NCBI RefSeq assembly: GCF_019375475.1
Contig: NZ_JAHXGQ010000004.1
Location: 124,001-188,000 of the forward strand
Origin: Saccharothrix obliqua
GTDB lineage: Bacteria; Actinomycetota; Actinomycetes; Mycobacteriales; Pseudonocardiaceae
Direction of reading: 5' to 3'
Length of the DNA: 64,000 nucleotides
Shown here: positions 58,721 through 62,320 of the stretch, one piece after another
Layout: every line of letters starts with the position of its first letter
Numbering within the stretch: the stretch's first letter is position 1
Made by a program: the position numbers and the translations under genes
The notes under the pieces: generated by a model
Told to the model about the DNA's origin: nothing
The model's input: only the letters and a program-made list of their open reading frames with translations
The model's database searches: none

Positions 58721-59563
58721 CGCACCCCCCGGGTGCTCGCTGGGCCGGTCCCGATCGTAGCGGCGGCGGTGGGTGGCGGCCCCGGGGTGCTTCGGGGTCC
58801 TGGCCCGACGCGGTCGCGGACCGCGAGCCGTCGTCCGCGGGCGCCGCGGTGCCGCCGAAGCCCGGCCATCGCCGCGGTCGCCGGGTCGCACCGGGACCGA
58901 CCACGACGAGAGCGCTCCCGCGCCGAACCCGCACTCGGACGGTGGTCACCCGGCGGCGTGACCCGAATGCGCTGGACACCCACCGGGCCGCCCGCGAAAA
59001 CCAGCACGCGCCGGAGAATTATCCGAAAGAACTACACGTCCGCTCGCCGCACCCGACCGGGCATTGCCGCCGGCTCGCGCGTGTGCGAATTGTACGGAAT
59101 TGTCCCCGCACAAATACGGTCCACCGCCGGTCGGAGCGGCCGGCGCGGGCCGTGCCACTTGCCGCGCACCACGACGTCGCGCACGACCGCGCACGGCCAA
59201 TCGGATCGCGATGGGAGGCAATTCCAGCATAGACCGGACCGAACGAGTGCATCCCGACCGCGCTCCACCGTCACCTCACGTGTCGATCACAGAGCACTGA
59301 TTCACCCGCCGACCACCCCTGATAGGGGGACGCCACGACACCGATAGTGACCAGGTCAAATGCTCCTACCTCGACCCTTTCCGTGTTGCCTGGAATTACC
59401 ATTTATGCGCCCACGCAGTTGTCGTCGCCCGATGGGAGCAATTTCCCGAAAAATCCTGGACCACCCACCGCCGCTCGGTACCGTAGGCGCTGCACGAGAT
59501 CGTGCAGACCTGTGCACAGGGAGAGTTCCGGATTGGGAACGACTCGGGGGAAGGGGGTGCGCA
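58721..59563. other. Long intergenic region upstream of lasso operon
   Basis: No credible gene is visible over 843 bases between the nitroreductase (minus) and the lasso precursor (plus). It should hold divergent promoters. Composition drops in GC around 59085-59130 and 59385-59460. Two GAATTGT heptamers (59087-59093 and 59097-59103) repeat in direct orientation at a 10-base period, a spacing reminiscent of SARP-type sites. Two palindromes lie close to the precursor. Confidence 0.6.
59490..59520. promoter_or_regulatory. Twin palindromes before the lasso precursor
   Basis: CTGCACGA-GA-TCGTGCAG (59490-59507) is a perfect 8-2-8 palindrome; one base later CCTGTGCACAGG (59509-59520) is a perfect 12-bp palindrome. 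Both contain TGCAC/GTGCA. They end 43 bases before the precursor ATG and are good candidates for an operator pair controlling the lasso operon, or for a leader hairpin. Confidence 0.6.
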
Positions 59564-59680
59564 ATGTACTCGAAGCCGACTCTGCTGAAGCTCGGTTCGT
59601 TCGAGCGGCTGACCATGCACAGCCGTCCGGTCAAGAAGGACCGCGACGGCCGTCGCCGGCCGCGGCGGATCCTGTTCTGA
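59564..59680 (+). CDS. Lasso peptide precursor
   Basis: A 38-aa precursor. The leader carries the RRE-recognition motif YxxPxL (YSKPTL, residues 2-7) and LGSFERLT (10-17), the standard actinobacterial leader form, with Thr17 at the expected penultimate position. The core would then be HSRPVKKDRDGRRRPRRILF (19-38): a macrolactam from His1 to Asp8, followed by a tail with arginine clusters. A GGGGGAAGGGGG ribosome site precedes the ATG. Cyclase, RRE protein, leader peptidase and transporter genes follow in the same direction. Nine Arg/Lys in 20 residues and an N-terminal His are unusual; most lasso cores start with Gly or another small residue. Confidence 0.88.
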   Translation: MYSKPTLLKLGSFERLTMHSRPVKKDRDGRRRPRRILF

Positions 59681-59692
59681 TCGCCGCTGAGC

Positions 59693-59734
59693 GTGGTGGT
59701 GCGGGGCTCGGCGGAGTGAACCCCGCACCACCAC
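59693..59734 (+). terminator. 14-bp hairpin between precursor and cyclase genes
   Basis: GTGGTGGTGCGGGG (59693-59706) pairs perfectly with 59721-59734 around a 14-base loop, followed by CTCGATTTT. It begins 12 bases after the precursor stop. As a partial terminator or RNA stabiliser it would give far more precursor than enzyme transcript, the usual need in RiPP operons. Confidence 0.75.
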
Positions 59735-59790: not shown

Positions 59791-61614
59791 ATGAATCAAG
59801 CCGGTCCGGCCGACGAATGGCTGGTCGTGCTGCCCGACCACCCCGACGCCGCGGCGGTGGTGTCCGCGCTCGGGCCCGTGCCGAGGCGCGTGGACCACCC
59901 GTCCGGCAGGCCGTGGCTGCTCGGCCGGTGGGACCCGGTGGACCTCCGGGTCGGCGTCGACGGCGACACCGCGATCGCCACGCTCGGGTTCTCGTCCGCC
60001 GCGCCCGAGGCACTGGCCGCGACCGCCCGGCGCACCACGGACGTCGCCGCGCTCGACGGCTTCTCGCCCGCCGGCTGCCACCACCTGCTGGCCAGCGTCG
60101 GCGGCACCACGCGTGTCCAGGGCACCCTGTCCGGGTTGCGCCGCGTCGTGCACGCGGACGTGCGGGGCGTGCCGGTGGCCGCCACCCGGGCCGACGTGCT
60201 CGCGAACCTCCTCGACAGCTCGCTCGACCGGCGGCGGCTGGCGTTGAAGGTACTGCTGTCGGAAGTACCGCTGCACGTCATGAACGCCCCGCTCTGGCAC
60301 GGCGTGCACGCCGTGGACGAGGACGCCTGCCTGGTGCTGCCACCCGGCGGCCGGGCACGGGTCCGGCGGCGCTGGGAGCCGCCGCCGGACGACCTGACGC
60401 TGGCCGAGGCCGCGGGTTCCGTGCGCGTGGCCCTGGCCGACGCCGTGCGGACCCGGCTCGACTCGGGCCTCGCGGTGACCGCCGACCTGTCCGGCGGCCT
60501 GGACTCCACCACGCTGTGCTTCCTCGCCTCGCGCGGCGGCCGGCCGCTGACCGCAGTGACCAGGCTGGCCGTGGACCTCGGTGACGACGACCCGCTGTGG
60601 GCGGACCTGGCGGCCGAGCACCTGCCGAACCTGACCCGCATCACCGTGCCGCGCGACCGCATCCCCAGCCACTACAGCGACGTCCTCGCCCCGTTCCCGC
60701 CGACCGAGGAGCCGTTCCCCGGCGTGGAGGACCGCCCGATGTACCGGTCGCTGGCGGCACGCGTCGGCGCGACCGGCTCGCAGGTCCACCTGACCGGCGA
60801 CGGCGGCGACGAGACGCTGATGGGCGGTGCGTCCGGCGTGTTCGAGCTGCTGCGCACCCGACCGCTGACCGCGTGGCGGCACCTGCGTGCCTACCGGGCG
60901 CTGGAACACGTGCGGTGGCGCGACATCGCGCACTTCGCGTTGGAGCGGCGGCGCCCGTACCCGCGTTGGCTGGCCGACCGCGCACGCGCCCTCATCGCCT
61001 CCCCGCTGGAGAGCGAGAGCGCGACGAACCTCGTGCAGATGCCGCCCTGGGCCACCCCGGAAGCCGTGGACCTCGCCCGCGACCTCCTGCTGGAGGAGGC
61101 CGCGACGGCTCGGCAGCACGGCCACAACTGGACCGCGCACCACACCGTCTGGGGCATCCGGCTGTGCGCGAGCCTGGTGCGCGCGACCGTGCCGCTCTAC
61201 GCCGCCGAGGGCATCCGCGTGACGTCGCCGTACCTGGACGACGCCGTGATCACCGCGTGCATGGCGACCCGCACCGACGAGCGCCGGACACCGTGGAAGT
61301 ACAAACCGCTGCTGGTGGAGGCGATGCGGGGCATCGTGCCGGAGCGCTGCCTGGCGCGGACCACCAAGGCCGAGGGCTCCAACGTCGAGCACGAGGGCCT
61401 GCGCGACAACGTCGACCGGTTGGCCGCGATGTGCGACGACGCGCGGTTGTCGCGCCTCGGCCTGATCGACGCGGACGCGCTGCGGGACACCTGCACCAGC
61501 TTCCGCATCCGCGAGTACACGCCGTACGCGATCTCGATCACGATGAGCAGCGAGCGGTGGTTGCGCGACCTGGAGCAGCCGGTCGCCGTGGCGGACGCGG
61601 AGGTCGCGTCATGA
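59791..61614 (+). CDS. Lasso peptide macrolactam synthetase (asparagine-synthase-like)
   Basis: A 607-aa homologue of asparagine synthetase B, the lasso cyclase (C protein). The ATP-binding loop SGGLDSTTL is at about 235; LTGDGGDETLMGG follows at about 332, both needed for adenylating the Asp/Glu side chain. The N-terminal half keeps the glutaminase fold but lacks an N-terminal catalytic Cys, as normal for these cyclases. It joins the core N-terminus to the acidic side chain and threads the tail. GAGAAGGGGGG precedes the ATG; the longer upstream frame reads through the precursor region and is rejected. Coupled to the RRE gene by ATGA (61611-61614). Confidence 0.95.
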   Translation: MNQAGPADEWLVVLPDHPDAAAVVSALGPVPRRVDHPSGRPWLLGRWDPVDLRVGVDGDTAIATLGFSSAAPEALAATARRTTDVAALDGFSPAGCHHLLASVGGTTRVQGTLSGLRRVVHADVRGVPVAATRADVLANLLDSSLDRRRLALKVLLSEVPLHVMNAPLWHGVHAVDEDACLVLPPGGRARVRRRWEPPPDDLTLAEAAGSVRVALADAVRTRLDSGLAVTADLSGGLDSTTLCFLASRGGRPLTAVTRLAVDLGDDDPLWADLAAEHLPNLTRITVPRDRIPSHYSDVLAPFPPTEEPFPGVEDRPMYRSLAARVGATGSQVHLTGDGGDETLMGGASGVFELLRTRPLTAWRHLRAYRALEHVRWRDIAHFALERRRPYPRWLADRARALIASPLESESATNLVQMPPWATPEAVDLARDLLLEEAATARQHGHNWTAHHTVWGIRLCASLVRATVPLYAAEGIRVTSPYLDDAVITACMATRTDERRTPWKYKPLLVEAMRGIVPERCLARTTKAEGSNVEHEGLRDNVDRLAAMCDDARLSRLGLIDADALRDTCTSFRIREYTPYAISITMSSERWLRDLEQPVAVADAEVAS

Positions 61615-61883
61615 CGCTGCGGTTGCGCGCGGAGGTGTCGCTGGCCGAGGCCGAGGACGGCGGCGGCGTGCTGCTCGACGAGCGGTCCGGGGAGTATTGG
61701 CAGCTCAACCCGAGCGGGCTGACCACGTTGAAGCTGCGGCTCGCGGGTGCGGACGAGGCGACCATCGCGGAGACCCTGCTCGCGGGCGCCCAGGACGGGA
61801 CGGGCGACGTGGCGCAGGCCGTCGCGGACATCCGGGAGCTGGTGGCGCAACTGGCGGACGCCGGTCTGGTGGTGGGCGGGTGA
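61611..61883 (+). CDS. Lasso RRE protein (B1, PqqD-like)
   Basis: A 90-aa PqqD-like recognition element: an N-terminal beta strand pair, then GGGVLLDERSGEYWQLNPSG and a C-terminal helix bundle (LVAQLADAGLVV). It binds the YxxPxL leader and delivers the precursor to the peptidase and cyclase. Its ATG overlaps the cyclase stop, and its stop overlaps the GTG of the peptidase gene (61880-61883), so the three are made together. It is separate from the peptidase, as usual in Actinobacteria (split B1/B2). Confidence 0.95.
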   Translation: MTLRLRAEVSLAEAEDGGGVLLDERSGEYWQLNPSGLTTLKLRLAGADEATIAETLLAGAQDGTGDVAQAVADIRELVAQLADAGLVVGG

Positions 61884-62320
61884 GTTCACCGGAGACCCTG
61901 TTCGAGGCGACCCGCCCGCCGTGGCGCACGCGGGTCGCGGTGCGTGCGGCCGTGGGTGTCGCGCTGCTCCTGTCCCACCTGCCGCCGCGCCGCATCCGGC
62001 GCGTCCTCCAGCTGGCGCGCCGCGGCGCCGCGCCGGCGACGTTCAACCAGGCGCGGGCCGCGCGGTCGGCCGTGATCGCGGTCAGCCTCACCTGCGCCGG
62101 CAAGGGGTGCCTGCCCCGCTCCATCGCCACCGCGCTGGTCTGCCGCACCCGCGGCGTGTGGCCGACGTGGCGGGTCGGGGCGCGCACCGCGCCGTTCAGC
62201 GCGCACGCCTGGGTCGAGGCCGAGGGACGTGCCGTTGACGAGGGCGAGCAGGTGCTCGCCTTCCGCCCGTTGATGACCGTCGAACCCCCCGACCGCCAGG
62301 AGAGAGAACCCGAATGTTGA
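61880..62320 (+). CDS. Lasso leader peptidase (B2, transglutaminase-like)
   Basis: A 146-aa cysteine protease of the lasso B2 type. The catalytic triad is visible: Cys77 in AGKGCLPRSIA, His109 in FSAHAWVE and Asp120 in RAVDEGE. It cleaves the leader after the Thr-x pair so that the cyclase can use the freed N-terminus. GTG start from the overlap with the RRE gene. It overlaps the transporter gene by seven bases. The length is normal for the family. Confidence 0.94.
   Translation: MSSPETLFEATRPPWRTRVAVRAAVGVALLLSHLPPRRIRRVLQLARRGAAPATFNQARAARSAVIAVSLTCAGKGCLPRSIATALVCRTRGVWPTWRVGARTAPFSAHAWVEAEGRAVDEGEQVLAFRPLMTVEPPDRQEREPEC

Follow-up and report, generated by a model that had tools for sequence, protein, structure and literature searches.

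A conserved family of predicted class II lasso peptides with an N-terminal histidine and a strongly basic core

A 38-codon gene in the window, the stretch of 64,000 nucleotides of Saccharothrix obliqua DNA that was analysed, encodes a member of the HSRP peptides, which are a real, conserved and uncharacterised lasso family with ordinary biosynthesis and with an unusual first residue and charge. The sequence makes it very probable that the locus directs class II lasso biosynthesis with the assigned core HSRPVKKDRDGRRRPRRILF. As far as our searches reach, such a product, if made, would define a lasso family in which the N-terminal histidine is obligate and which is among the most basic. It would then put two things to the test: the extent to which lasso cyclases take a first residue that is bulky and charged, and the idea that high charge on a lasso scaffold leads more generally to ribosome activity like that of lariocidin. 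For such a test, five natural variants exist in the HSRP family in addition to the core of the window.

Translation of positions 59564-59680 (+) gave 38 codons and a stop, with the product MYSKPTLLKLGSFERLTMHSRPVKKDRDGRRRPRRILF. The leader contains the YxxPxL motif and Thr17 at its penultimate position, and scored 21.9 bits against the NCBIfam model NF033521 (lasso_leader_L3; cut-off 19); the precursor scored 20.8 against Pfam DUF5972, just under the cut-off of 22.6. The translation and the score over the NF033521 cut-off confirmed the original prediction of a 38-codon lasso precursor with these two leader features. The predicted cut, after precursor residue 18, separates MYSKPTLLKLGSFERLTM from HSRPVKKDRDGRRRPRRILF. 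The proposed core has 20 residues with the ring segment HSRPVKKD, and its seven Arg and two Lys residues, also part of the original prediction, were borne out by translation. The charge of the predicted product is about +7, and the monoisotopic mass calculated for the core minus water is 2526.474, which corresponds to calculated ions at 843.165 (3+), 632.626 (4+) and 506.302 (5+). Purine-rich stretches (e.g. AAGGAGG, AAGGAG) were also present 5' of the precursor in seven related loci. The features of the locus are listed in Table 1.

Table 1. Features of the predicted lasso locus (window coordinates)
Feature	Position	Strand	Basis or remark
Purine-rich stretch, probable ribosome-binding site	59546..59557	+	Direct sequence reading
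Lasso leader peptide MYSKPTLLKLGSFERLTM	59564..59617	+	NF033521 above curated cut-off
Lasso core HSRPVKKDRDGRRRPRRILF with a ring predicted to be closed by an isopeptide bond between His1 and Asp8	59618..59677	+	His1 and Asp8 conservation
GC-rich hairpin in the precursor-cyclase spacer, outer arms of 14 nt	59693..59734	+	May act as an attenuator or stabilise the mRNA
Lasso cyclase (C), Asn-synthase type, SGGLDST motif	59791..61614	+	PF00733, E 1.3e-36
B1, PqqD-like leader-recognition protein (RRE)	61611..61883	+	NF033530 73.4 (cut-off 70); PF05402
B2, transglutaminase-like leader peptidase	61880..62320	+	NF033537 115.2 (cut-off 33); PF13471
D, ABC exporter, 598 aa	62314..64000, ends at 64110	+	PF00664, PF00005

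Several features expected of a class II lasso system were found together: a cyclase, an RRE and a leader peptidase beside the precursor, a YxxPxL leader with a penultimate Thr, an acidic residue within core positions 7-9 (Asp8 in all six distinct cores) and the absence of cysteine from the core sequences, which leaves no disulphide. Against this identity, the cyclase scored 233.7 bits with the nearest and top-scoring NCBIfam model, the albusnodin/ikarugamycin-type cyclase family NF033561, below its cut-off of 300. The C, B1, B2 and D genes follow the precursor as a series of overlapping reading frames, and alignment of B2 showed conservation of the Cys of CLPRS and the His of HAWVE. Homologues of D with 66-79% identity adjoin all seven related clusters. 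In the window's own genome D overruns the window end by 110 bases, so the enzyme set is complete in the genome and not within the window; the earlier claim of a complete set directly behind the precursor stood for the presence of C, B1, B2 and D, with the end of D lying outside the window.

Analysis of the 110-nt spacer between precursor and cyclase revealed a folding z of -3.4, with none of 200 dinucleotide shuffles as low. Strong hairpins were found 3' of the precursor in all eight loci, mostly unlike in sequence, and those of two loci (G376 and G369) lay only weakly below mononucleotide shuffles (25/300 and 14/300 as low, respectively). Their common placement in related loci suggests that the balance between precursor and enzyme levels is under conserved control.

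The core and the predicted ring were then considered in a gapless alignment of the six distinct precursors. Cores in eight genomes follow the pattern HSRPxxKDxxxRRRPRxxL[LF], and the positions invariant in the six distinct cores are H1, S2, R3, P4, K7, D8, R12, R13, R14, P15, R16 and L19. In the leader, Y2, P5, G11, F13, L16 and T17 are invariant in the six distinct homologues, and the residue preceding the predicted cut is M, K or Q. All six distinct homologues keep precursor residues His19 and Asp26, which are core His1 and Asp8, whereas position 10 is Ala in four of the six distinct cores and Asp in those of the window and G376. This contrast between an invariant His1 and Asp8 and a variable Asp10 supports the predicted cut and the eight-residue ring, in line with the start at His and closure at Asp8 proposed earlier, and supports His1 and Asp8 as the putative ring partners. 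The second Asp at position 10 in two cores is what would favour processing of another kind, with the cut at a different site or the ring closed through Asp10; replacement of that Asp by Ala in the other four cores, the invariance of Asp8 and His1, and a core start that fits a Thr at the penultimate leader position make this very improbable. Position 17 is His in five of the six distinct cores and Arg in the core of the window. The pN/pS ratio, pooled over pairs of eight short sequences that include two pairs with identical protein, was 0.38 for the leader and 0.36 for the core, which indicates that selection keeps the peptide.

We also examined the distribution of the cluster. When the cyclase was used to scan named genome contigs, an approach that detects close relatives only, one match emerged, Amycolatopsis azurea DSM 43854 (72% identical), the precursor of which is MYSKPTLLKLGSFERLTKHSRPAKKDKAGRRRPRHVLL. 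Among 390 genomes searched within the bacterial family, a cyclase match at E <= 1e-60 was present in 100. Of these 100, eight, the window's genome included, had a cyclase of 63-100% identity together with an upstream HSRP precursor; the eight belong to five genera, and A. azurea appears to be one of the seven carriers besides the genome of the window. Within the window's genus the cluster was present in one of 25 genomes. No relatives outside the bacterial family were found in samples drawn evenly from the order (2/397 positive, both within the family) and from the class (1/394 positive, the window's own genome), family members being included in both samples.

The precursor (A), C, B1, B2 and D were present in all eight loci (B1 by tblastn), with D preceding A in G368 and G369. 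The same five genes in seven other genomes, together with purifying selection on leader and core, argue that the precursor locus did not arise by chance. A comparison of 14 entries, in which the window's locus was counted twice, showed that among gene groups common to at least three loci only C, D and B2 cross genera. No flanking genes called with a simple script were common to different genera, except for a 44% response-regulator match between the locus of the window and that of A. azurea, and no tailoring enzyme common to the whole HSRP family was found among the genes compared. The unit is dispensable and gets lost, as judged from two further genomes of the genus of G368: in G371 (L176) a deletion took out nearly the whole unit and left gene ends alone, and G370 (L177) retained B1, B2 and the end of C and lost the rest. 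Two neighbouring genes were noted at single parts of the family. A polyamine-synthase-like gene (PF01861; L074 10348-12468, with equivalents in L075 and L076) immediately precedes the HSRP precursor, in the same orientation, in the three genomes of a single genus, G355 among them, and in no other genus. In A. azurea a cytochrome P450 gene is found some 3.5 kb 5' of the precursor.

The locus had been proposed as a possible new structural class, a view that was not supported: what the gene content predicts is a class II lasso peptide of the ordinary kind, no tailoring enzyme runs through the family, and homologues, themselves uncharacterised, occur in four other genera. A literature search with core and leader fragments returned no paper; subscription papers and supplementary prediction tables lay outside that search, and the peptide may be listed there. 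The searchable literature text contained nothing on a lasso peptide with His1 and no account of a lasso peptide from A. azurea, a strain named there just in reference to other compounds.

Based on established lasso biochemistry and gene content, with the cut and ring positions taken from conservation, we propose that B1 would bind the YxxPxL leader and that B2 would cleave the precursor after residue 18. C would activate the side chain of Asp8 and join it to the amino group of His1, and the Arg-rich tail is predicted to be threaded and trapped within the eight-residue ring. The product would be an unmodified class II lasso peptide exported by D, which is probably the sole local self-protection. 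By analogy, the product is probably an antibiotic against neighbouring bacteria, the simplest reading for a conserved, exported peptide with a charge of about +7; the exporter in eight of eight loci and the high charge are consistent with this role, for which the cationic lasso antibiotics lariocidin and triculamin are precedents.

What such an antibiotic might act on was considered by comparison with known lasso peptides. According to two reports (PMC11451635, PMC13192320), ribosome action has been shown by experiment for lariocidin and inferred for triculamin. Both share with the window's core an eight-residue ring closed at Asp8 and a strongly cationic character. They differ in length (17-18 residues versus 20) and in their common start SKKSKPGDG, which is absent here, with Ser1 in place of His1; the SKKSKPGD-type ring with Pro6-Gly7-Asp8 was likewise not found in the core of the window, and the residues Pro6, Gly7 and Phe11 of lariocidin (PMC11451635) are all missing from it. 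The lariocidin cluster also encodes an ABC exporter, through two exporter genes as opposed to one here. Lassomycin (GLRRLFADQLVGRRNI) resembles the core in being Arg-rich with Asp8 and a hydrophobic C-terminal residue; it is unlike the core in having 16 residues, Gly1 and four Arg, and is described as methylated at its C-terminus. Albusnodin is described as acetylated. Pfam searches of 32 flanking genes at five loci, with five of the 32 genes giving no match, recognised no acetyltransferase (a GNAT enzyme would be expected in a cluster of the lariocidin/triculamin family), no methyltransferase of the kind expected for a lassomycin cluster and no resistance gene, and a clostripain-type peptidase, a further point of difference from lariocidin and triculamin, was absent among the flanking genes tested. 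Comparison with shuffled sequences revealed no significant similarity after three tests: 8251 of 20000 shuffles of the window's core scored as well against lariocidin (13232 for the family consensus), 6104 against lassomycin (5365) and 901 against lariatin A (2428). The motif RRRPR also opens the proline-rich peptide PR-39 (PMC8065624); this is a five-letter coincidence that we kept as a lead only.

Two potential self-resistance determinants were tried and rejected. An ABC-F gene of ribosome-protection-like type (NF000355) lies near the cluster in G368 and G369, which are of one genus (383.8 and 389.5 bits; cut-off 380). However, homologues with 66-100% identity were present in all 12 genomes searched, four of which (G366, G367, G370, G371) have no intact HSRP cluster; the flanks of G368 and G369 are syntenic on both sides; and in G371, where the cluster between them is deleted, some 2.4 kb separates the ABC-F gene from the far flank. 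Because it occurs without an intact cluster, sits in syntenic flanks and is kept by G371 after the deletion, we rejected it as evidence for self-resistance or a ribosomal target and regard it as a chromosomal bystander. An altered ClpC was also rejected, as its first 145 residues are identical in seven producers and eight cluster-free genomes. This comparison covered 15 of 16 genomes; the window's own was left out because a contig of that draft breaks off near where the gene begins (C19:1), which points to an assembly gap, and the identity argues only against self-resistance through a changed target.

Our favoured guess, which is tentative and drawn by analogy, is an anionic intracellular target, RNA or the ribosome, since the precedents of comparable charge and ring, lariocidin and triculamin, act on the ribosome. 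Against it, the core resembles lariocidin and lassomycin no better than shuffles do and lacks the lariocidin residues named above, and no dedicated resistance gene supports any particular target. A signal, metal-binding or other non-antibiotic peptide, with His1 and His17 as possible metal ligands, would fit the invariance of His1, the presence of His17 in every core but that of the window and the absence of a recognised resistance gene among the flanking genes tested; we consider it rather doubtful, given the Arg at position 17 of the window's own core and a patchy presence with losses between close relatives, which is more in keeping with an accessory weapon than with a core signal. The charge and the Leu-Leu or Leu-Phe end, which gives a mildly amphipathic tail, could point to a membrane-acting cationic peptide, but hydrophobic residues are few and single Arg, Pro and ring residues are conserved, a pattern that suggests a specific partner over bulk charge, and a membrane role is unlikely. 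A lassomycin-like peptide directed at ClpC1 and acting on the ClpC unfoldase is distinctly unlikely: the two cores share Arg richness, Asp8, a hydrophobic end and four of 16 positions, but the shuffle result, the uniform ClpC N-terminus and the lack of a methyltransferase among the flanking genes searched, unlike what C-terminally methylated lassomycin would call for, all weigh against it.

Within the favoured RNA or ribosome reading, a more detailed proposal is speculative and carries considerable doubt. Here HSRP would be a second, independently evolved ribosome- or RNA-binding lasso antibiotic, with a His1 ring (Arg3, Lys6, Lys7) and an RRRPR tail, that would enter cells by charge, bind rRNA or the exit tunnel and be countered in the producer by export alone; the window's strain would be armed with a small set of Arg-rich lasso peptides, and related cyclases would make three of these.

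The rarity of the core features was assessed in cores called by a simple pattern. Among the matches listed, 110 loci selected by leader score, eight of them without a core, gave 91 distinct cores; none of these 91 started with His, one had a net charge of +6 or more, and two had +5 or more. The earlier statement that such a first residue and such basicity are rare was thus supported within this sample. A broader collection, which is enriched for relatives of the window, comprised 146 loci, 11 of them with no core call, and 113 distinct cores; it contained six His1 cores, all of the HSRP family, and 13 of 113 cores with a charge of +5 or more.

A tree was built from 32 cyclases chosen as the best matches to that of the window, so that its sampling is not neutral. 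The eight HSRP cyclases formed one clade (support 100/100), with two paralogues from the window's contig next to it (91/87) and three further cyclases of Arg-rich precursors joining next (85/77); with the cyclase of G223 included, the precursor of which was not found, support was 100/99. The Arg-rich precursors of G080, G144 and G098 fell in the other half of the tree, which shows that high Arg content is not confined to the clade containing HSRP. Other Arg-rich precursors of the bacterial family (GSRGRQRDSRRRQKN, GLLGRRRDSRNRLRPQA, RGGARPPRDSRWTRRRRRGE) resemble that of the window in having cyclases 45-47% identical to its cyclase and Arg-rich cores with Asp8 or Asp9, and differ in their cores and first residues.

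The window's genome encodes three further Arg-rich lasso precursors. Two, RGGARPPRDSRWTRRRRRGE and AVRPGYRRDGRYIRARRHHTD, lie on the window's contig within 56 kb, in clusters with the cores RGGARPP... and AVRPGYR..., and GRGPWGRDYRRRRTH lies elsewhere in the genome. The AVRPGYRRDGRYIRARRHHTD cluster (L079 8590-11010; G000:C33 about 208.6-211.0 kb) contains a cyclase and B1; tblastn over 19 kb detected neither B2 nor an exporter, and the cluster may borrow B2 from another one. A methyltransferase gene is located about 3 kb from it. The RGGARPPRDSRWTRRRRRGE cluster (L008 6342-8941; G000:C33 about 236.3-238.9 kb) has an Asp9 core with its own cyclase and B2, and ABC transporter genes lie 1.5-5 kb or so away. 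The basic precursor with the core GRGPWGRDYRRRRTH maps to G000:C44:275881 (L141). These further Arg-rich precursors, in the genome and in the bacterial family, indicate that strong basicity recurs among the lasso precursors here. Very basic lasso cores also occur in the bacterial family at L053, L069, L070, L148 and L151, examples being RRGRWGRDRRWRRRWW and the Cys-containing CGKCGWGRDRFCRRGHRHWFW group.
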